Assembly (NCBI GenBank): GCA_028689195.1
Contig: JAQTWR010000017.1
Coordinates: 1-15,887 of the forward strand
From: Anaerolineales bacterium
GTDB taxonomy: Bacteria > Chloroflexota > Anaerolineae > Anaerolineales > Villigracilaceae
Direction: 5' to 3'
Length of the DNA stretch: 15,887 bases
Both the position numbers and the translations under genes were made by a program. A model generated the notes under the pieces. The model saw only the letters and a list, made by a program, of their open reading frames with translations. It did not search any database and was not told where the DNA came from. Shown here one piece after another: positions 2,063 through 14,380 of the stretch (the stretch's first letter is position 1; the number at the start of each line of letters is the position of its first letter).

Positions 2063-2063
2063 G

Positions 2064-2134
2064 CTGGGGACAATGGATTCGAACCACTACTAGCTGCTCC
2101 AGAGGCAGCTGTCCTGCCATTAGACGAGTCCCCA
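2064..2134 (-). tRNA. tRNA-Gln, anticodon CUG
   Basis: The minus strand folds into a complete 71-nt cloverleaf. The acceptor stem is TGGGGAC with GTCCCCA, including the U1-A72 pair usual in bacterial tRNA-Gln. The anticodon stem is GCTGC/GCAGC around loop CTCTGGA, giving anticodon CTG for codon CAG. The T arm is AGTGG-TTCGAAT-CCATT, and the discriminator base is G, as expected for Gln. The 3' CCA is not encoded. It is a single gene with its own promoter (-35 TTGCCC, 17-nt spacer, -10 TAAAAT). Confidence 0.95.
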
Positions 2135-2181: not shown

Positions 2182-2196
2182 GCTCGAATTTTTGAT

Positions 2197-2319
2197 AGGA
2201 GTGTCTAAAAGGATGGGCTTTCTTTAACGCGAAGGCGCAAAGACGCCAAGCCTCAAAGGTTTCTTTGCGTCTTCGAGTCTTCGTGACTTTGTGTTTAGCC
2301 CACAAAGTTAGACACTCCC
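2197..2319 (+). mobile_element. MITE-like element, copy A (123 bp)
   Basis: A non-coding 123-bp element flanked by perfect 8-bp direct repeats TTTTTGAT (2189-2196 and 2320-2327), as left by transposition. The ends are inverted: GGAGTGTCTAA at the left and TTAGACACTCC at the right. The similarity extends inwards, since TGGGCT follows five variable bases at each end. A second copy in inverse orientation at 7276-7398 has the same length and only two differences. No transposase frame fits inside, so mobilisation would have to be by an enzyme encoded elsewhere. An 8-bp duplication is compatible with several IS families (for example IS256, ISL3, IS66); none is assigned. Confidence 0.88.
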
Positions 2320-2384
2320 TTTTTGATTTGCGTAACATCCCCGCCGTTAAATTTTGCCGTCAAACGAGTCTTCGCGTCGTCGCT

Positions 2385-6471: not shown

Positions 6472-7188
6472 TTAATTCTTCTTCGGGATCAAACTCAACG
6501 CAAGATAGTATGCGACATAAACGAAGGAAGCCCAGACGATCCACTTGGGCGTATTGGGATAGAGCAGCAATCCCCAAATGCCGATGGCGGCGTAGAGATA
6601 AGTAAGCCCAAGCGTGAGCGCGCGCAAATAACTATTGCGGCTGGGATAAATATATTTAATGGGGACAAAAACAAGGATGTTGAACGCGACGAGAAAACCA
6701 AAATTGACCCACTGCGGCAGGCTCATCAGAAGCATGTAAAGCGCCATCACGTTCCAATAGGATGGGAAACCCTTGAAGTGATGATCGTCGGTCTTGGCGT
6801 CGGTCTGCGTGAATTGATACGCGGATGTGATGAGGATGGAGAACGCGCCCGCCATTTGCAATCCATACGGGAGGATGTCGGCTTGCATGAGGAAGAGCGC
6901 GGGGACAACGACGTAATTGAGGTAATCGAGGATGTTGTCGAGCAGCGCGCCGTCAATCCCTTTGGCGTAGGTTTTAACGTCAGCCCAGCGCGCGAGCATA
7001 CCGTCGAAGCCGTCCACGAGCATGGCGACGACCATCCAGATAATCATCATTTTCCATTGGCGCTCGAAGATGGCGAGCATGGCTAAAAATCCCCAGATGG
7101 CGCCTGTGGCGGTAAAGAGATGCACGCCATACGCGGCAATTACGCGCAGGGGATGGGGTTTGGTTTCTATCATTGCAGAAGCGCTCAT
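6472..7188 (-). CDS. pcs: Phosphatidylcholine synthase (CDP-diacylglycerol + choline)
   Basis: A 238-residue polytopic membrane protein of the CDP-alcohol phosphatidyltransferase superfamily. The catalytic motif is complete and has the long spacing characteristic of bacterial phosphatidylcholine synthases: D62-G-x2-A-R67, 12 residues, G80-x3-D84-x3-D88. Pcs enzymes make phosphatidylcholine in one step from CDP-diacylglycerol and choline. The following DYLNYVVVPAL and HHFKGFPSYWNVMALYM segments also match that family, and length agrees (230-250). Several hydrophobic helices are evident (about 21-58, 86-110, 140-185, 190-235). ATG 7188 is preceded by AAAGGA at 8-nt spacing. The gene has its own terminator. 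A MITE lies 80-210 nt upstream and may affect its promoter. Confidence 0.88.
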   Translation of the reverse strand: MSASAMIETKPHPLRVIAAYGVHLFTATGAIWGFLAMLAIFERQWKMMIIWMVVAMLVDGFDGMLARWADVKTYAKGIDGALLDNILDYLNYVVVPALFLMQADILPYGLQMAGAFSILITSAYQFTQTDAKTDDHHFKGFPSYWNVMALYMLLMSLPQWVNFGFLVAFNILVFVPIKYIYPSRNSYLRALTLGLTYLYAAIGIWGLLLYPNTPKWIVWASFVYVAYYLALSLIPKKN

Positions 7189-7269
7189 AAAGTTAATCCT
7201 TTGGCGAAAAATTAAATACGGAATAAGTCAATAAGTAAACACGAAAACAAGGAAACTGGTTCGCTCGAA

Positions 7270-7275
7270 ATTATA
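7270..7275 (-). promoter_or_regulatory. TATAAT box next to MITE copy B, possible pcs promoter
   Basis: A perfect minus-strand TATAAT (7275-7270) lies inside the left target duplication of MITE copy B and about 80 nt upstream of pcs. The right duplication carries a second identical box (7406-7401). No good -35 is seen for either; for the left box it would fall inside the MITE. Confidence 0.35.
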
Positions 7276-7398
7276 GAGAGTGTCTAACTTTGTGGGCTAG
7301 ACACAAAGTCACGAAGACTCGAAGACGCAAAGAAACCTTTGAGGCTTGGCGTCTTTGCGCCTTCGCGTTAAAGAAAGCCCATCCTTTTAGACACTCCT
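7276..7398 (-). mobile_element. MITE-like element, copy B (123 bp, inverse of copy A)
   Basis: The reverse complement matches copy A (2197-2319) over the full 123 bp with two substitutions: TTTAGCCC versus TCTAGCCC near one end, and a terminal CTCCC versus CTCTC. It is flanked by perfect 8-bp direct repeats AAATTATA (7268-7275 and 7399-7406), different from those of copy A, so the two are independent insertions. The ends are GAGTGTCTAA and TTAGACACTCC. It sits between the terminator of the secreted-protein gene and the pcs coding region. It is non-coding and has no transposase. Confidence 0.88.
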
Positions 7399-7415
7399 AA
7401 ATTATACAGGGAAGT

Positions 7416-7523: not shown

Positions 7524-10199
7524 TTACGGCAAGAGATAGGTGATCGTGAGGACAGGTTGAAGCGTGGCAGATTCGCCGCTGAAGAACGTAAGATAGTCGG
7601 CTGCCGTATTGCCGTTGGAGCCTCTGGCAAACTTGACGCGGAATTGCGTAAGCGCCGTGCTGCTCACAGAAGGCAGGGCGGCGGGTTTAAGCGCGGCAAC
7701 ATACCAAACGCCGGAAGCAAACGCATCTGTGCTGTTGTTGAGGCTGGAAAGCGCCTCGAAGTCACTGGCAGCCAGAGCCGCAGTTCCAAAGGACGGGGTG
7801 ACAATATCCGTCATCAGCGGACCGAAGCCGGTGACTGTTCCTACAGCGCCGCCGCTTCTCAGGTACAAGCTGGCGTCCAATACCACAGCGCCATCAGTCA
7901 AAGCCGCGCCCGTATCGAAGGAAACAACGGAGCGGAATTGTCGCTTCTGCACGTTATCGCCAACCAGCAAATAACCGCCGGTGGCGCTGAAGGGTCCGCC
8001 GACAAGGCTGGCGGGAGCGGATTCAAGAATCCAGCCGTCTTCCGCGGCAGAGCTCTTCACATTGGCAGTAAGAGCGACAACATTCCAAGTATAGGTCGCG
8101 GGGGTCGCTTCGTAGTTCGAGCTTGTATCGTAAGCGCGCACGTTGAATGTGTGCGAACCAACCCCAAGGTTTGTGTAATCCGCAACGGCGCCGACTGTGC
8201 AGTCAGCCCATGCGCCGCCGTCCAATTGACAGTCAAATCCGGCAACGTCGGTAGCGGCATTGCTGAACGCGAAGTGAGCGCTGGCAGAGTTGCTGGGGTC
8301 GGTGGGCATCGCGTTGATAACGGTGCCATTCGGGGCGGTAGCGTCGGCATTCCAGCAGGAATTATTGCTGAACGCGGCAACGCTTGTGTACCATTCCGCG
8401 GCGGTGGAGCCGCGCAGGTATTCGCTGGTGAAGAAGAATTCGCAGCCGTCAGGAGCGAGGTCTAAGGCGCTGTAATCGCCCCAGCGATAGCCTAACCCAA
8501 GTTGCGAGCCGGCGGCGGTTGTAGTGCTGACCGCTACCTTCTCAGTGCGCGGAAGGGTGTTCAACGGGTCGGTGAATAAGCGTCCAGAGTACGCCATGTT
8601 CGGGGCATAGGTGGAGCTGGAAACGCTGTAGCCTACGGCAATATTGCCCATCGCATCCATCGCGGCGGAGCCCATCCAGCGGCTCTTGGCGTCGGGGGCG
8701 AGGTCGCCATACTGGTGGACGCCCCAAGTCGCGCCGCTGTCAGTACTTTGCAGCTCGTACCAGCGGATGCCGGCGTAGCCGTTATTGAGGGCGGGGTCGG
8801 TGTTCGCGTCTACGGTGTGATTGACAACCAGAGTAAAGTGAGCAGGCTGTCCAAGAGCGGGAGTATCCGCCGCGAAATTGCGGAATTGCAGGCGGTACAT
8901 CAGACGGTCGGCAATCGCGTCTACGCCGACGGTGGTATTGGGCTGCGGAATACAGTTGCGCGCATAGCCCGCGCAAACTTCAGAGTCGAAGGGGGCTACG
9001 GGCACGGCTGCCAGAGGCGCAAACGAAGCGGTACCGGCTGCCCAATTTGTCGTGAAGGTCCAAATCTGAAGTTGGTCGGGCGAGTAACCCCAAGAGTCAT
9101 CATCGAATTGCATGAAGAAGTTGGGAGCGCCTACGGGAGCGGGAGCGCCTTCCATATCAGAGGGCAACATGCCGCCCAAAACACAGGCAGGCTCGGCGCC
9201 CGTCGTGCAGGAGGGATATGTGTCAATGTAGATCATGCGCGCGGTAGCTGCGACCGCAGGATTCGCGCTGGACATTACGTCGCGTTCAAATACCGCCACG
9301 CCTTGACCGCGCCATGCCGAAGCCGCTTCGGGCGCAAACTGGTTGATGGACATGTAGTAGCCATCCTGCCAGGTGCCGAATTTGGGATAGTCGTTCATCA
9401 CGTTGAAGCTGTAGCGATACAGATTCCACGAACCCAGCGGGTTGGCGGTCTGCGAAACGGCGATACATTCAAAATATGGTCCGCCGGCTACGCCATAGTT
9501 GGGCAGCGCGAACTGGGTAAGCACCCAAACGCTTTTGGCTTCATCAAAGAACACAACGGGGTCGCCGTCATCCCAGACGTCGCAAACGCCGTCGTTAGTG
9601 TTCTTCCACAGCGTGCTGATCTTCTGCGGAGCGTAAATATTCATCGGGAACACGCCGTTGGGGCTCACTGTGGTCAAGTCCCAAATCGTAAAGGTGCTGT
9701 TGACCGTCTGAATATAATACAGATCGCTTGCCGCGCCGTTGGTATCGGGCGGGTACACGCCGTAGCCGAAGATGGCGCGGTTATTGCCCTGATTCAAGCC
9801 CGCCCATGCGGCGTCCAAACTGGGCATGGGAACATCGATGAGTTTCTTCTGGGGGGGAAGCACATTGGCTCTGTCGCTGGAGCGCGCAAAACCGGAAGGG
9901 GAATTCGCGTTCCCCGTTCTGCGCGGAATCTGGAAATCGCCGCGCGTCATTTTGAGCGGAAGCGGGTCAGGACCTGGGTTGGGCCAGTCTTCCACGCGGA
10001 CGGGGGCGGTCAATTGCGCAAGGGGAAGGGTGGTTACGAAGAATTTGTCCGCAGCGACGGCGGTACCGGGGATGCCCGAGACGCCCATCGGTCTTTCGGC
10101 GATAGGCGCGGCGGTAGCCGGTATCGTCATAGACAAAATCAAAACGGAAACGAACAATAATCCCACTATTTTCATCAAACGAGAGTTTTTTGTTTTCAT
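7524..10199 (-). CDS. Large secreted protein with propeller-like core and C-terminal beta domains, function unknown
   Basis: An 891-residue exported protein. Residues 1-31 form a signal peptide: a basic start, a hydrophobic stretch IVGLLFVSVLIL, and an ATA-A cleavage site. Residues about 120-615 have repeats of Asp/Trp-rich strands reminiscent of a sialidase- or propeller-like fold: GDPVVFFDEAKSVWVLTQF, YECIAVSQT-like FECIAVSQTANPLGSW, NDYPKFGTWQDGYYMSINQF, MLPSDMEG, RWGDYSALDLAPDGCEFFF. Such proteins are met in secretomes of Chloroflexota and similar bacteria; no catalytic motif is recognised. Residues about 620-710 look like an Ig-like domain (FDCQLDGGAWADC, LGVGSHTFNVRAYDTSSNY). Residues about 715-891 resemble DNRLRE-type beta-sandwich domains of cell-surface proteins (FRSVVSFDTG, LDASLYLRSGG). 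ATG 10199 has AAAGGA about 9 nt upstream. It is a single gene with its own terminator. Confidence 0.85.
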   Translation of the reverse strand: MKTKNSRLMKIVGLLFVSVLILSMTIPATAAPIAERPMGVSGIPGTAVAADKFFVTTLPLAQLTAPVRVEDWPNPGPDPLPLKMTRGDFQIPRRTGNANSPSGFARSSDRANVLPPQKKLIDVPMPSLDAAWAGLNQGNNRAIFGYGVYPPDTNGAASDLYYIQTVNSTFTIWDLTTVSPNGVFPMNIYAPQKISTLWKNTNDGVCDVWDDGDPVVFFDEAKSVWVLTQFALPNYGVAGGPYFECIAVSQTANPLGSWNLYRYSFNVMNDYPKFGTWQDGYYMSINQFAPEAASAWRGQGVAVFERDVMSSANPAVAATARMIYIDTYPSCTTGAEPACVLGGMLPSDMEGAPAPVGAPNFFMQFDDDSWGYSPDQLQIWTFTTNWAAGTASFAPLAAVPVAPFDSEVCAGYARNCIPQPNTTVGVDAIADRLMYRLQFRNFAADTPALGQPAHFTLVVNHTVDANTDPALNNGYAGIRWYELQSTDSGATWGVHQYGDLAPDAKSRWMGSAAMDAMGNIAVGYSVSSSTYAPNMAYSGRLFTDPLNTLPRTEKVAVSTTTAAGSQLGLGYRWGDYSALDLAPDGCEFFFTSEYLRGSTAAEWYTSVAAFSNNSCWNADATAPNGTVINAMPTDPSNSASAHFAFSNAATDVAGFDCQLDGGAWADCTVGAVADYTNLGVGSHTFNVRAYDTSSNYEATPATYTWNVVALTANVKSSAAEDGWILESAPASLVGGPFSATGGYLLVGDNVQKRQFRSVVSFDTGAALTDGAVVLDASLYLRSGGAVGTVTGFGPLMTDIVTPSFGTAALAASDFEALSSLNNSTDAFASGVWYVAALKPAALPSVSSTALTQFRVKFARGSNGNTAADYLTFFSGESATLQPVLTITYLLP

Positions 10200-10530
10200 C
10201 CTACATAATCCTTTTTTAGAAAATATGTCTTACGGAGTGTTTTGAATTTACTGTTTGATATTGCCTGTTTTGTCTATTATTATTTTGTTAAATGACGCCT
10301 CCTTTTATCGTACTCGAAATCATTCCCCCGTTGACATACGCGCTCGTTCCAACAGAGCCGTGTATGAACCAGCAACGATTCGCAATGGCGCGCCTTTTAG
10401 GAGCGGAAGTCGCGTTTACGCACGCGCCGACTTTACAATCTCGCTGCTTCATATCGGCCCCATTATAAACATGCAAATTGTTTCTGACAACCGCAAAATG
10501 AGAAAAAAGGGCGCGCAATTCAAAAAACAA
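10200..10530. other. Gene-free upstream region of the secreted-protein gene
   Basis: About 330 bases without a credible gene. The first 110 are AT-rich (minus-strand TAATAAT at about 10278-10284, possible -10) and include the AAAGGA ribosome-binding site. The rest shows no repeat or motif I can name. A 108-codon plus-strand open frame beginning at 10255 runs through the hairpin at 10531 and is not supported as a gene. Confidence 0.5.
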
Positions 10531-10565
10531 AAGACCTCGGAGATTTGTGAAATCTCCGAGGTCTT
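10531..10565 (-). terminator. Terminator-like hairpin upstream of the secreted-protein gene
   Basis: A perfect 16-bp stem AAGACCTCGGAGATTT / AAATCTCCGAGGTCTT with a 3-nt loop. On the minus strand it is followed by TTGTTTTTTG, so it would act on minus-strand transcripts. It is about 470 nt past the ileS stop, behind the main ileS terminator, with which it shares the stem core. Confidence 0.7.
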
Positions 10566-10713: not shown

Positions 10714-10953
10714 CCAAACAAGTCAGTACATCTTTCCAAAAATGTACTGATGTTTTTATTAAAATGTAAGTAACCCAAGTTGCTACCATGTTTTCTGGGT
10801 AAAAAAATCTCAGACCCTTGCCACAGATTTCACCGATTTGCGCGGATTTTTTTTCAAATTAGTGAAAATCCGTGTAATCCGTGGCAAAAGAACTAAAAAA
10901 ACTGGTAAAGGTGGCAACTTGCGTTAAGTACATTTTCCCAAACTTGTCAGTAC
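10714..10953. repeat. Imperfect inverted-repeat element with a nested 70-bp repeat
   Basis: Two 27-nt arms at 10761-10787 and 10910-10936 are inverted with 23 of 27 matches (core CAAGTTGC with GCAACTTG). Outside them CCAAACAAGTCAGTAC (10714-10729) and CCAAACTTGTCAGTAC (10938-10953) are direct repeats (14/16). CAGTACAT also forms an inverted repeat with ATGTACTG (10724-10749). The interior holds the TTGCCAC/GTGGCAA repeat. No open frame is seen. It is possibly a decayed non-autonomous element. Confidence 0.55.
10818..10887. repeat. TTGCCAC...GTGGCAA dispersed repeat, copy 1
   Basis: A 70-bp unit starting TTGCCACAGATTTCAC and ending GTGTAATCCGTGGCAA, with imperfect terminal inverted repeats (GCCAC/GTGGC and ATTTCAC/GTGTAAT). 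A clearly related copy lies at 14244-14314. Repeats of the form CACAGATTTCAC...AATCCGTGGC are common in environmental bacterial genomes. Confidence 0.75.
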
Positions 10954-10965
10954 TTTTTTCATCAA

Positions 10966-11002
10966 AAAGACCTCGGAGGTTTTGGAAACCTCCGAGGTCT
11001 TT
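10966..11002 (-). terminator. Terminator of ileS
   Basis: A perfect 17-bp stem AAAGACCTCGGAGGTTT / AAACCTCCGAGGTCTTT with a 3-nt loop, followed on the minus strand by a T-run. It begins 28 nt past the ileS stop. It shares the GACCTCGGAG arm with the hairpin at 10531. Confidence 0.9.
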
Positions 11003-11030: not shown

Positions 11031-14000
11031 TCACTTCCCCGCCTTCACCAACCCCACCTTCACCGTCTCACCTTCAAACCCATCCTCCACCACGGACGAG
11101 CCAGCGGGCGCGGCGGCAAAACTCAACTTCGTCGTCAGCGTTTCGGACTTGATGTACTCCTCATGCTTCTCGATCGCAGACTTCAAGGTCGCGCTGGCTT
11201 CGACGTATAACTCAATGCGGTCAACCACGTCGAGGTCGGCAGTCTTGCGGAGATCCTGCACGCGGCGGACAAATTCGCGGGCGAGACCTTCGCCGATCAG
11301 TTCGGGCGTCAGGTCGGTGACGAGGGCGGCGACGTATGCGCCATCTTCCGCCACGGCAAACCCAGACTTGGCTTGCGCTTTCACTTCCACTTCTTCAGCG
11401 GTGATCTCCAGCGTTTCGTCGCCGACTTTTACGGGCAGCGTTTTGCCAGCCATAAACGTGGACGCGACTTCTTCCGCGTTCATTGCAAAGATCGCCTTTT
11501 GGATGGCGGGGAACTTGTTGCCGTATTTCTGTCCGAGTTGCTTGGCGTACGGCTTGACCGTATGCGAAACCGCTTCGGTTGCCGCGTCGAGCAGACGCAC
11601 TTCTTTGACGTTCAATTCATCCGCGATGGTGTCCACGTTGTTCATCAACGCGGCGCGTTCGCTGGCAGTCCCAACGGAGAACGCGGCAGCGGCGAGCGGC
11701 TGACGCACTTTGCGATTCGCCTTCTGGCGCGCGGAGTGACCGAGCGAGACGAGTTTCATCACGAGGTTCATATCGCGGTTGAGCGATTCGTCAATGAACT
11801 CTTCCATCACCGCGGGCCATTCCGCCAGGTGAACGGATTCGGGCGCGGTCTCGTCAATCGAACGGACGAGGTTCTGGTACAGTTCTTCCGCGAGGAAAGG
11901 CATGGCGGGCGCGATCAACTTGGCGACGGTGACCAGCGCGGTGTAGAGAGTCGAATACGCGGCTTGTTTATCCGCGCTGGAGTCGTTCTTCCAGAAGCGG
12001 CGGCGCGAGCGGCGCACGTACCAGGTCGAAAGCGTTTCAACAAATTTTTCAACGGGACGAGTCGCATTGGTCGCGTCGTATTCTTCGTAGGCTTTGGTCA
12101 CGTCGCGCACAAGGACATTCAACTCGGAGAGCAGCCAACGATCCAAATCATTCGTCGCGGCATTCACGGTCAAGCCTTGCGGTTTGTCGAGATTCGCGTA
12201 CGTGATGAAGAACGAGTACACGTTCCACAGCGTCAGCGTGAAACTGCGAATCACGTCGCCAACAAGATCAGCCGAGAAGCGGCGTTCCTGCCCCGCGGGC
12301 GAAGCGGTGTAAAGATACCAGCGCAGCGCGTCCGCGCCATGCACGTTGAGCACATCCCACGGCTGGACGATGTTGCCGAGCGACTTGGACATCTTACGAC
12401 CTTCCGCGTCTTGAATGTGACCGAGGCAGATGACGTTTTTGAACGAGACTTCATCGTTGAGCAAAGTGGAAATCGCGTGCAGCGAATAGAACCAGCCGCG
12501 CGTTTGATCCACCGCTTCGCAGATGTAGTCCGCGGGATACTGCGCCTCGAACTTATCTTTATTCTCAAACGGATAATGCCACTGCGCGTACGGCATGGAA
12601 CCAGAGTCAAACCACACGTCAATCAAATCTTTGACGCGCGTCATCTTGCCGCCGCATTCTTCGCATTTCCAATGGACGTTATCCACATGCGGGCGGTGTA
12701 AATCCAATTCGCTTAAATCCTTGCCCGCTTTTTCAGACATCTCTTTGACCGAACCAACGCATTCGCGGTGTTTGCAATCGTCGCATTCCCAAACGGGCAG
12801 CGGCGTGCCCCAATAACGCTCGCGGCTCAACGACCAGTCAATGTTATTTTCCAACCAGTTGCCGAAGCGTCCGTTCTTGATGTGATCGGGAACCCAATTG
12901 ATGGTTTTGTTCAACCCCACGAGTCGATCCTTCTTCGCGCTGGTGCGGATGTACCACGACTCGCGCGCATAATACAACAGCGGAGTTTTACAGCGCCAGC
13001 AGAACGGATACGTGTGCGTAAATTTTCCCGCGCGGAAGAGCAATCCGCGCGCGCGCAAATCTTCGATGATTTGCGGATCCGCGTCCTTGACAAACACTCC
13101 GCGCCACGGCGTGATTTCAGGGATGAACGTGCCATCGGGCTGCACGGTCAACAGGATCGGCAGATCGTGTAGTTTGCCCATTTCCATGTCTTCCGCGCCG
13201 AACGCAGGCGCTTGATGAACGAGACCCGAACCATCTTCGGTGGTGACAAAATCCGCGAGCAGGACATAATACGCGGGTTTGTCCACGGGCATGAATGTAT
13301 ACAGCGGCTGATATTTCTGCCCCTTGAGTTTCTTGCCCTTGAACGTCTCCAGTACTTTGACTTCTTCACCCGCGAAAATTTTCTCGACGAGATTCTTCGC
13401 GAGGATGAGTTTTTCCTTCGTGCCTTCGTTATCGCGCTCGATGGTGACGTAATCCACTTCGGGGTGCGCGGCGATAGCCACGTTGGACGGCAGCGTCCAC
13501 GGAGTCGTCGTCCACACCAACAGCGACGTATCGGGGTTATCCACGAGCGGGAAGCGCACAAACACGGAGGGATCTTCCGCGTCTTCATAACCCAGCGCAA
13601 CTTCATGGTCGGAGAGTGGCGTGCCGCAGCGCGGGCAATACGGGACAATTTTATAGCCCTTGAAGAGCAAGTCCTTCTCCCAGAAACTTTTGAGAATCCA
13701 CCAGACCGACTCGATATACTCGTTGTGATAGGTCACGTACGCGGTATCGAGGTCAACCCAGAATGCGATTCGGTCAGTGAGTTTCTCCCACTCCTGAATA
13801 TAGGTAAAGACCGAGTTACGGCATAATTCGTTAAATTTATCCACGCCGTATTCTTCGATCTGCTGCTTGTTCGTGAAACCAAGTTGCTTCTCGACTTCGA
13901 TTTCCACGGGCAGACCATGCGTGTCCCAGCCGCCGCGCCGCGAGACGTGATATCCGCGCATGATCTTATAACGCGGGAACATATCCTTAAACGCGCGCGC

Positions 14001-14180
14001 CAAGACGTGATGAACGCCAGGGCGACCATTCGCCGTGGGCGGACCCTCATAGAATACATATTCGGGTTTGCCTTTGCGCTGCTCAACGGTCTTTTTGAAA
14101 ATGCCCTGCTTCGTCCACATCTTGAGGACATTCTCTTCCATCGAAACGGCGTCGAGTTTTGAGTTTACGGGTTTGAACAT
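11031..14180 (-). CDS. ileS: Isoleucyl-tRNA synthetase, type 2, with GXHH signature
   Basis: Charges tRNA-Ile with isoleucine in the cytoplasm. The 1049-residue class I synthetase has the first signature GPPTANGRPGVHHVLARAF (46-64), in which HIGH is replaced by G55-V-H-H58, and KMSKS at 596-600. The CP1 editing domain is seen at TTTPWTLPSNVA (224-235) and DGSGLVHQAPAFGAED (316-331). Also present are WSLSRERYWGTPLPVWEC (449-466), cysteine pairs (C182/C185, C394/C397, C466/C469, C506/C509), and the anticodon-binding C-terminal half. The first signature and long C-terminus place it with type 2 (eukaryote-like) IleRS, which resist mupirocin. ATG 14180 has TAGGAG at 8-nt spacing. It is controlled by a T-box leader ending 200 nt upstream and ends at its own terminator. 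Confidence 0.96.
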   Translation of the reverse strand: MFKPVNSKLDAVSMEENVLKMWTKQGIFKKTVEQRKGKPEYVFYEGPPTANGRPGVHHVLARAFKDMFPRYKIMRGYHVSRRGGWDTHGLPVEIEVEKQLGFTNKQQIEEYGVDKFNELCRNSVFTYIQEWEKLTDRIAFWVDLDTAYVTYHNEYIESVWWILKSFWEKDLLFKGYKIVPYCPRCGTPLSDHEVALGYEDAEDPSVFVRFPLVDNPDTSLLVWTTTPWTLPSNVAIAAHPEVDYVTIERDNEGTKEKLILAKNLVEKIFAGEEVKVLETFKGKKLKGQKYQPLYTFMPVDKPAYYVLLADFVTTEDGSGLVHQAPAFGAEDMEMGKLHDLPILLTVQPDGTFIPEITPWRGVFVKDADPQIIEDLRARGLLFRAGKFTHTYPFCWRCKTPLLYYARESWYIRTSAKKDRLVGLNKTINWVPDHIKNGRFGNWLENNIDWSLSRERYWGTPLPVWECDDCKHRECVGSVKEMSEKAGKDLSELDLHRPHVDNVHWKCEECGGKMTRVKDLIDVWFDSGSMPYAQWHYPFENKDKFEAQYPADYICEAVDQTRGWFYSLHAISTLLNDEVSFKNVICLGHIQDAEGRKMSKSLGNIVQPWDVLNVHGADALRWYLYTASPAGQERRFSADLVGDVIRSFTLTLWNVYSFFITYANLDKPQGLTVNAATNDLDRWLLSELNVLVRDVTKAYEEYDATNATRPVEKFVETLSTWYVRRSRRRFWKNDSSADKQAAYSTLYTALVTVAKLIAPAMPFLAEELYQNLVRSIDETAPESVHLAEWPAVMEEFIDESLNRDMNLVMKLVSLGHSARQKANRKVRQPLAAAAFSVGTASERAALMNNVDTIADELNVKEVRLLDAATEAVSHTVKPYAKQLGQKYGNKFPAIQKAIFAMNAEEVASTFMAGKTLPVKVGDETLEITAEEVEVKAQAKSGFAVAEDGAYVAALVTDLTPELIGEGLAREFVRRVQDLRKTADLDVVDRIELYVEASATLKSAIEKHEEYIKSETLTTKLSFAAAPAGSSVVEDGFEGETVKVGLVKAGK

Positions 14181-14243: not shown

Positions 14244-14314
14244 TAGCCACAGATTTCACGGATTCGCACGGATTTTTTAAATCAATCCGTGACAATCGGT
14301 GTAATCCGTGGCAA
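14244..14314. repeat. TTAGCCAC...GTGGCAA dispersed repeat, copy 2
   Basis: A 71-bp relative of the unit at 10818-10887. It shares GCCACAGATTTCAC, the CGGATTTTTT stretch, and GTGTAATCCGTGGCAAA. It lies in the ileS transcript between the T-box terminator and the start codon, where GCCAC/GTGGC and inner ATCCGTG segments could fold. Next to it, 14340-14363 (CAGCGTCTCTGTGTCTCAGTGG) looks like another common dispersed motif. Confidence 0.75.
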
Positions 14315-14380
14315 AGGTTTTTTATGAATTGCCTTTTACTCAGCGTCTCTGTGTCTCAGTGGCTCAATTGCTTTTGGGAT

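Follow-up and report, generated by a model that had tools for sequence, protein, structure and literature searches.

The 15,887-nucleotide stretch of an Anaerolineales genome analysed here (the window, contig C371 of the host draft) carries two copies of a non-autonomous MITE that was, very probably, mobilised in trans by an IS1-family transposase, has recently expanded in the host genome, and has as its core a repeat of non-IS origin that its ends would have enclosed. What is new is the IS1-type MITE together with evidence of a hairpin cargo packaged by unrelated transposon ends. The initial annotation had recognised a young MITE family; that the core is an independent, widespread kind of repeat, also carried by other transposon ends, was not foreseen in it.

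The two copies, each 123 bp long, lie at 2197-2319 (+) and, inverted, at 7276-7398 (Table 1). A repeat comparison within the window pairs 2196-2320 with 7275-7399 at 98% over 125 nt, and each copy has one deviation from the family consensus (position 122 in copy 1 and position 99 in copy 2), giving two mutual differences. The coordinates, the inversion and the two differences given in the initial annotation are thereby confirmed, as are the private exact 8-bp direct repeats that border each copy, TTTTTGAT at copy 1 and AAATTATA at copy 2. With its 23-bp bipartite ends the element is non-coding, and a transposase gene would not fit into it. Both copies are intergenic. Copy 1 is flanked on one side by a tRNA-Gln gene (2063-2134, minus strand) and on the other by a YqeC/MobA-like gene whose start is at 2397. 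Copy 2 is situated upstream of a minus-strand gene (6475-7188) for a CDP-alcohol phosphatidyltransferase-like protein and before an 891-aa ORF (7524-10199, minus strand) that has no Pfam match at E 1e-5.

Table 1. Parts of the two MITE copies and their target-site duplications in the window
Feature	Position	Strand	Basis
Left target-site duplication, copy 1, TTTTTGAT	2189..2196		sequence
Left IS1-type terminal repeat, copy 1, AGGAGTGTCTAAAAGGATGGGCT	2197..2219	+	22/23 bases equal to the L250 IS1-family left end
Hairpin core, copy 1, inverted tandem units, CACnRAG-type variant	2220..2296	+	fold, core similarity
Right IS1-type terminal repeat, copy 1 (GGGAGTGTCTAACTTTGTGGGCT read on the minus strand)	2297..2319	-	end motif
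Right target-site duplication, copy 1, TTTTTGAT	2320..2327		sequence
Left target-site duplication, copy 2, AAATTATA	7268..7275		sequence
Right terminal repeat, copy 2 (inverted), GAGAGTGTCTAACTTTGTGGGCT	7276..7298	+	end motif
Hairpin core, copy 2	7299..7375	-	repeat pairing with copy 1, family consensus
Left terminal repeat, copy 2, AGGAGTGTCTAAAAGGATGGGCT	7376..7398	-	end motif
Right target-site duplication, copy 2, AAATTATA	7399..7406		sequence

The whole element, represented by copy 1, folds with z values of -6.8 as RNA and -5.5 as DNA. In an Rfam scan of the window, the gathering score was reached by a tRNA and a T-box only, both outside the repeats. The T-box leader (RF00230; 14401-14685, minus strand) is located upstream of a class I tRNA synthetase gene (11031-14180), probably isoleucyl. 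A role of the core as a transcription terminator is unsupported, since terminator-like sites around copy 1 are no commoner than in shuffles (one site in the scan of 2020-2420 versus 0.6). Inverted repeats AAAGACCTC...GAGGTCTTT at 2032-2068, 10529-10565 and 10965-11001 resemble one common type of intrinsic terminator. Another dispersed inverted repeat without IS1-type ends (GCCACAGATTTCACCGATT ... AATCCGTGTAATCCGTGGC, at 10820-10888 and 14246-14315) has a period of ~10 nt and looks like a further class of CCAC-unit architecture.

Many more copies than the two in the window are present in the host draft, which comprises 2.85 Mb on 422 contigs and is 82% complete. A BLAST search with the 123-bp element gave 77 matches, many of which reflect a copy that is matched a second time, weakly, on the reverse strand. 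The end motif GGAGTGTCTAAN5TGGGCT, allowing two mismatches, has 57 matches on each strand, and the backwards pattern has none on either, in support of the bipartite ends as initially described. Among the loci read, with locations available for the best 100 of these 114 matches, 52 two-ended elements were identified. Of these, 38 share the window's type (type A), 11 belong to class B, which has GAGTGGC ends and includes two A/B hybrids, two to a longer type C, and one is decayed. Thirty-six of the type A copies are 123 bp and two are 115 bp in length; two further type A copies are interrupted by contig ends (C271, C288). Of the 36 full-length copies, 19 are identical to the consensus, 12 have one change, three have two and two have four. 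Mean divergence is 1.4 differences per 123 bp. The family has expanded recently in the host genome, and the window copies are part of this recent burst, in line with the youth proposed for the family from two copies alone. By eye, one class-B MITE (L077 1550-1800, contig C252), with the duplication CAAATCTG, is nested inside a copy of a CACAGATTTCACGGATT-type repeat; a flank-joining search gave no confirmation of the nested insertion.

Most host copies carry a target-site duplication of their own. The 8-bp duplication is exact in 40 of the 52 two-ended copies, and in three more (L013, L024, L079) after a one-base boundary shift in a check that allowed nine shift combinations. Four copies (L008, L016, L067, L075) match at 7/8 positions, and five are without a convincing duplication (L023 with none, L081 with 4/8, L080 and L044 with 6/8, and L004 at a contig end). 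The controls gave 0/51 at each of nine outward offsets and 0/2652 in cross-pairings of left flanks with the right flanks of other copies. The AT-rich nature of the targets, noted earlier for the two window sites, extends to the family, with 65% A+T in the duplicated bases versus 52% in the flanks. Coding-like ORFs, called by a codon model trained on long ORFs, contain 8 of the 52 insertion sites (several near an ORF edge) versus 186 of 276 random points, and insertions are mostly intergenic.

The initial annotation had considered that the element might be present throughout the orthologous loci of relatives. No end pair was found at the corresponding place in 38 relatives' loci neighbouring the two sites (19 per site; matches to the two sites exist in 55 and 49 genomes, the host among them). 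In the closest relative, aligned coding parts are 84-89% identical. Intergenic stretches are unalignable, some loci are cut by contig ends, and the gene order at copy 1 is broken in at least one genome, G036, whose genes flanking copy 1 are on different contigs, so that the corresponding place may not exist. The element-free neighbouring loci are therefore weak evidence of absence and not exact empty sites. In G016, an end pair (L186) lies ~600 bp from the scpA match. A search for paralogous empty sites with the joined flanks of 40 pairs gave no clean case; two alignments spanned the junction, neither of them convincing.

An element with the same ends was found in relatives. When 61 related genomes were searched for the end motif with at most one mismatch, 13 were positive. 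All 13 belong to the window's genus, the only positive one among 22. G001, G015 and G022 have one match apiece, and the reversed control likewise gave a single match in six genomes. In G032 the two end types are ~790 bp apart in four places, with insA- and insB-like frames between them joined by GATAAAAAAACAG. These four 791-bp elements have the ends GGGAGTGTCCAAAGGAATGGGCT / GAGAGTGTCTAAAACAGTGGGCT, an A7C slippery site and, in three of the four, exact 8-bp duplications. More generally, IS1-family elements of 787-793 bp in same-genus genomes bear the MITE-type bipartite ends. InsA matches positions 1-114 (E 1.3e-24) and InsB positions 120-199 (E 2e-7) of the NCBIfam IS1 model NF033558, each scoring below a cut-off set for the whole protein, which is split here. 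The Pfam IS1 model PF03400 gave E 6.7e-4 on InsB, also below its cut-off; since this model alone was too insensitive, missing the IS1 copies of G032, the InsB protein was used as the query instead. At E 0.001, the InsB of a relative finds 2180 related database proteins, and all source-given names among the 120 listed are IS1 transposase or IS1 InsB. InsB relatives occur in 17 of 57 genomes of the genus, where several are fragmentary or match only weakly. In named genomes they occur at 17 loci, all from Chloroflexota groups by title save one in a Deltaproteobacteria MAG. The InsB of this MAG (L253, JADZAE010000015.1) is 87% identical to the Anaerolineales ones and contains a stop, reflecting either an inter-phylum transfer or a binning error.

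Both ends of the IS could be placed in 18 of the 25 rows examined, and an A7C or A8C run (AAAAAAAC or AAAAAAAAC) precedes insB as the insA/insB slippery site in all 18. Three rows (L247, L248, L255) repeat others (L156, L157, L159), leaving 15 distinct elements. Exact 8-bp duplications flank 11 of the 18 rows, or nine of the 15 distinct elements; in the other rows the duplication is shifted or imperfect (five, including L171, L156, L250 and L254) or cut by a contig end (L246, L251). In L250, from a named Anaerolineales MAG (JAICRQ010000134.1), the left end GGGAGTGTCTAAAAGGATGGGCT is identical to that of the MITE at 22 of 23 bases, among them the five 'variable' ones; the right end of L250 agrees at 19/23, and its duplication is imperfect (6/8). 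GAGTGGC ends like those of class B are also present on L251, L252, L254 and L258-L260. A transposase clade that would fix T versus G/A in GAGTG[T/G/A]C was unsupported, with three changes on an 11-row tree and 222 of 500 shuffles as low. By eye, the likeness of IS and MITE is confined to the ends, and the MITE has no transposase gene. The GAGTGNC...TGGGCT ends differ from those of E. coli IS1. With ends of ~23 bp, split insA/insB frames between them, an A7C site (A8C in one element), mostly 8-bp target duplications and a match to the IS1 profile, the partner elements have the features of the IS1 family, and the vehicle is very likely of this type. The initial annotation had taken the ends for transposase recognition sequences and had proposed looking for an IS that shares them and makes 8-bp duplications; such elements exist in the same genus and in named genomes, and they lend support to that role of the ends.

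In the host draft, the InsB search gave 0 matches. The host DNA read contains 104 distinct end sites. A two-ended MITE starts at 102 of them, two are MITE pieces at contig ends and none belongs to an IS, so a resident multi-copy partner in the assembled part of the host is unlikely. The only IS1-like fragment of the host (C230:8-100) is a differing C-terminal piece without the MITE end motif in the stretch read; at the start of this contig (L138, 1-140), the transposase fragment is followed by what may be its own end (GGTAGTGGTTCAAA, minus strand). Taken together, the missing InsB relatives and the host end sites without an IS suggest that the partner was lost from the host, was never resident, or lies within the missing 18%. 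The expectation that a matching transposase is in the genome or was there recently thus holds better in its second half, the first being at odds with the InsB result in the 82%-complete draft. In G009, five contigs (C22, C24, C43, C73, C93; L120-L125) end inside the IS1 element, ~120-140 bp past its ends, and these breaks show that multi-copy IS are lost from short-read drafts. When named genomes were scanned for the A/B-type left-end pattern there were 0 matches, records near the host perhaps being left out; the MITE had no match in phage and plasmid records, the IS1-ended core of G003 none in plasmid records, and no InsB relative was found in viral contigs.

The interior of the element has a different distribution from its ends. 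By eye, CACnRAG-like units in an inverted array are present in the interior of all 15 two-ended IS1-type MITEs examined from relatives (in L104 only partly); the window core is a variant in which CGC replaces CAC in several left-arm units. The units are 7 nt long with spacers of 1-2 nt, whose length differs between families. A three-unit CACnRAG pattern is present in 46 of the 61 related genomes and in 10 of 22 genera, and the reversed pattern counted only G023 as positive (3 + 2). G027 and G055, each with one reversed match in the end-motif search, had none in the core-pattern search. Copies of the core without recognisable ends occur as well. The core exists apart from IS1-type ends, as no IS1-type end motif was found in nine of the ten core-bearing genera, and it is not IS-derived but belongs to a class of inverted tandem-unit repeats that is widespread. 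The possibility that the core is a perfect hairpin maintained by pairing was unsupported by an arm-to-arm comparison of 27 hairpins with 2-nt spacers, which are related copies. Between the arms of one hairpin, spacer dinucleotides are equal in 1/54 cases and the free unit base in 24/81; the corresponding figures for different hairpins are 173/1404 (12%) and 921/2106. Arms agree in their units but almost never in their spacers; this looks like an avoidance of perfect hairpins, although it is only suggestive.

The genome G002, of the same genus, holds 180 counted core matches. A total of 84 loci were read from 100 of these, with six more chosen for IS1-type ends; the sites were nearly all selected by the core, so their counts are uninformative on the share of MITEs without it. 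The core copies of G002 occur within four kinds of ends. Six are two-ended with IS1-type ends, two of them with exact 8-bp duplications. T2 ends (GAGACTGTTTAATAA) account for 20 rows, two of them overlapping, and 12 have exact 3-bp duplications, mostly of the form TNA. T3 ends (GAGAGYGTTTCTTAA) are found in seven after removal of T2 cross-matches and a composite, with three exact, and T4 ends (GACCTCTTGCATAAGT) in eight, all with TA on both sides and none with an exact 3-bp repeat. Under a looser classification of 68 deduplicated hairpin sites, an end type is recognised on two sides in 21, on one side in 22 and on neither in 25. The T4 ends match those of an IS5-family element of other genomes of the genus, a vehicle of 865 bp with the ends GACCTCTTGCATAAGT / GACCTCTTGCAAAAGT and TA on both sides, present in six loci of G026 and one of G016, seven of the 30 transposase loci retrieved. 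Its two frames match the NCBIfam IS5 model NF033581 at E 7.1e-21 and 6.1e-29, each under the whole-protein cut-off, and the second frame is above the Pfam cut-off for DDE_Tnp_1. Neither vehicle was found in the G002 draft, which has no InsB match and a sole DDE_Tnp_1 match without T4 ends, and no vehicle has been found yet for the T2 and T3 ends.

To compare interiors, one or two cores of each kind were aligned with their ends trimmed, against dinucleotide shuffles in one set and simple shuffles in another, neither of which models the tandem units. The window's A core scores 59 with the host class-B core (best of 200 shuffles 23), 51 and 57 with two IS1-ended cores of G026 (shuffle maxima 22 and 23), 53 with a T4 core of G002 (24) and 54 with a T2 core of G002 (27); the B core scores 63 with the T4 core (28). 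The z values of the host's two core types against T2- and T4-ended cores are 12.8-20.2. With the IS1-ended cores of G002 and G003, the A core scores no better than chance (15 and 17, reached by 90 and 51 of 200 shuffles). Nor is there a clear alignment with the IS1-ended cores of G016 and G024, where it scores 22 and 17 and the best shuffles reach 22 and 27. The G002 and G003 cores score 49 and 57 with the T3 core, with 0/200 shuffles as good. The window core is thus about equally similar to the T2- and T4-ended cores and to its closest IS1-ended relatives; it is closer to IS5-ended than to IS1-ended cores only with respect to G002, G003, G016 and G024, and not with respect to class B and G026. 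Based on these scores, IS1, T2 and T4 ends share one core class, and a second class is found with IS1 and T3 ends.

MITEs classically arise by internal deletion, and the match to IS1-family ends over ~23 nt on each side would be expected if the MITE were derived in this way from one IS1 element, with the core as diverged filler. We regard this origin as unlikely considering that no IS likeness beyond the ends is visible by eye, that both core types of the host align to T2- and T4-ended cores, and that the core units occur in nine sampled genera where IS1-type ends were not found. A less improbable alternative, though still doubtful, is that the core likeness arose by convergence, inverted short tandem units appearing repeatedly in MITEs without common descent or exchange. 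Units as short as 7 nt, the variable spacers, shuffles blind to tandem structure, and the two main core classes that do not align above chance (A versus the G002 and G003 IS1-ended cores and T3) are all consistent with convergence; what argues for relatedness is the high likeness within a class across end types (A-T4 and B-T4 scores about twice the shuffle maxima) and the recurrence of the CACnRAG motif in so many genomes, against a single one for the reversed pattern.

A strong fold and the intergenic position of both window copies could also suit a longer segmental duplication or a conserved regulatory hairpin, but the homology ends at the element boundaries, contrary to the longer duplicated segment considered in the initial annotation, the private exact duplications in 40 of the 52 copies refute such an origin, no Rfam family at the repeats reaches its gathering score, and the element is absent at these places in 38 of 38 neighbouring loci of relatives; the probability left for an immobile repeat is close to nil. 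Duplications of 8 bp are not unique to IS1, and a mover from IS256, ISL3 or IS6 could produce them as well. However, the transposase genes flanked by these ends are of the IS1 family in the loci read, which makes any other family highly improbable; IS256 is rejected as the vehicle, the IS256-type transposase model PF00872 having no match in the host.

A comparable system is MITEAba12 of Acinetobacter, a 113-bp element whose identity to its partner IS is restricted to the ends, with AT-leaning targets and target duplications that were read as evidence of trans-mobilisation (PMC6382973). The window MITE resembles it in these three respects, as far as the accessible text of that article goes. It differs in its ends and in the duplication length, that of the partner ISAba12 being 9 bp, and no shared-cargo core is mentioned for MITEAba12 in the same text (PMC6382973). 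BrickBuilt of Porphyromonas gingivalis, in the accessible part of its description, is likewise a MITE with a tandem-unit interior, made of 23-nt units without spacers (PMC4596501), unlike the 7-nt units found here, which form an inverted array and occur in different genera and under different end types. GTAG/CGTC-tagged REP are also described, in the part consulted, as small palindromes dispersed among many genomes (PMC3733652). No paper containing any of six core strings was found in a literature made up mostly of non-subscription journals. REPs are not known to have long terminal repeats or 8-bp duplications, unlike the window elements. Searches of titles and abstract starts (few subscription journals) for IS1-family MITEs, MITEs of Anaerolineales or Chloroflexi, dispersed hairpins and shared interiors gave no description of the window family, and none is contained in the accessible parts of PMC6382973, PMC3718332, PMC11448079, PMC10969869, PMC2229807 and PMC4596501.

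We propose that the transposase would bind the paired bipartite ends, each with an outer [A/G][A/G]GAGTGNC box, a 5-nt spacer and an inner TGGGCT box, and that the InsAB' protein of an IS1-family element would move the MITE in trans, inserting it into AT-leaning, mostly intergenic sites with an 8-bp duplication. The IS1-type ends have probably enclosed a copy of the widespread inverted tandem-unit repeat, and other ends, those of the IS5 family included, seem to have done likewise elsewhere. Ends could come to lie around a core if the repeat inserted into an IS whose interior was then lost, or if two IS ends flanked a repeat.

The usual explanation of a MITE is that it is a shrunken copy of a single transposon. 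In the present case, ends and interior seem to differ in their history, and a widely scattered bacterial repeat is tied to identifiable vehicles. Whether the portable hairpin is a cargo in its own right, repeatedly enclosed by unrelated transposon ends with end type and core type uncoupled (IS1-type, IS5-type and two further types in the single genome G002, in these Chloroflexota), appears to us an evenly balanced question. If it is, this would account for the dispersal of one small repeat through many lineages in the absence of a single transposase of its own. If one hairpin has been packaged repeatedly by different transposases, some property of it would favour it as cargo, such as tolerated insertion, a transcription stop or help in transposition.
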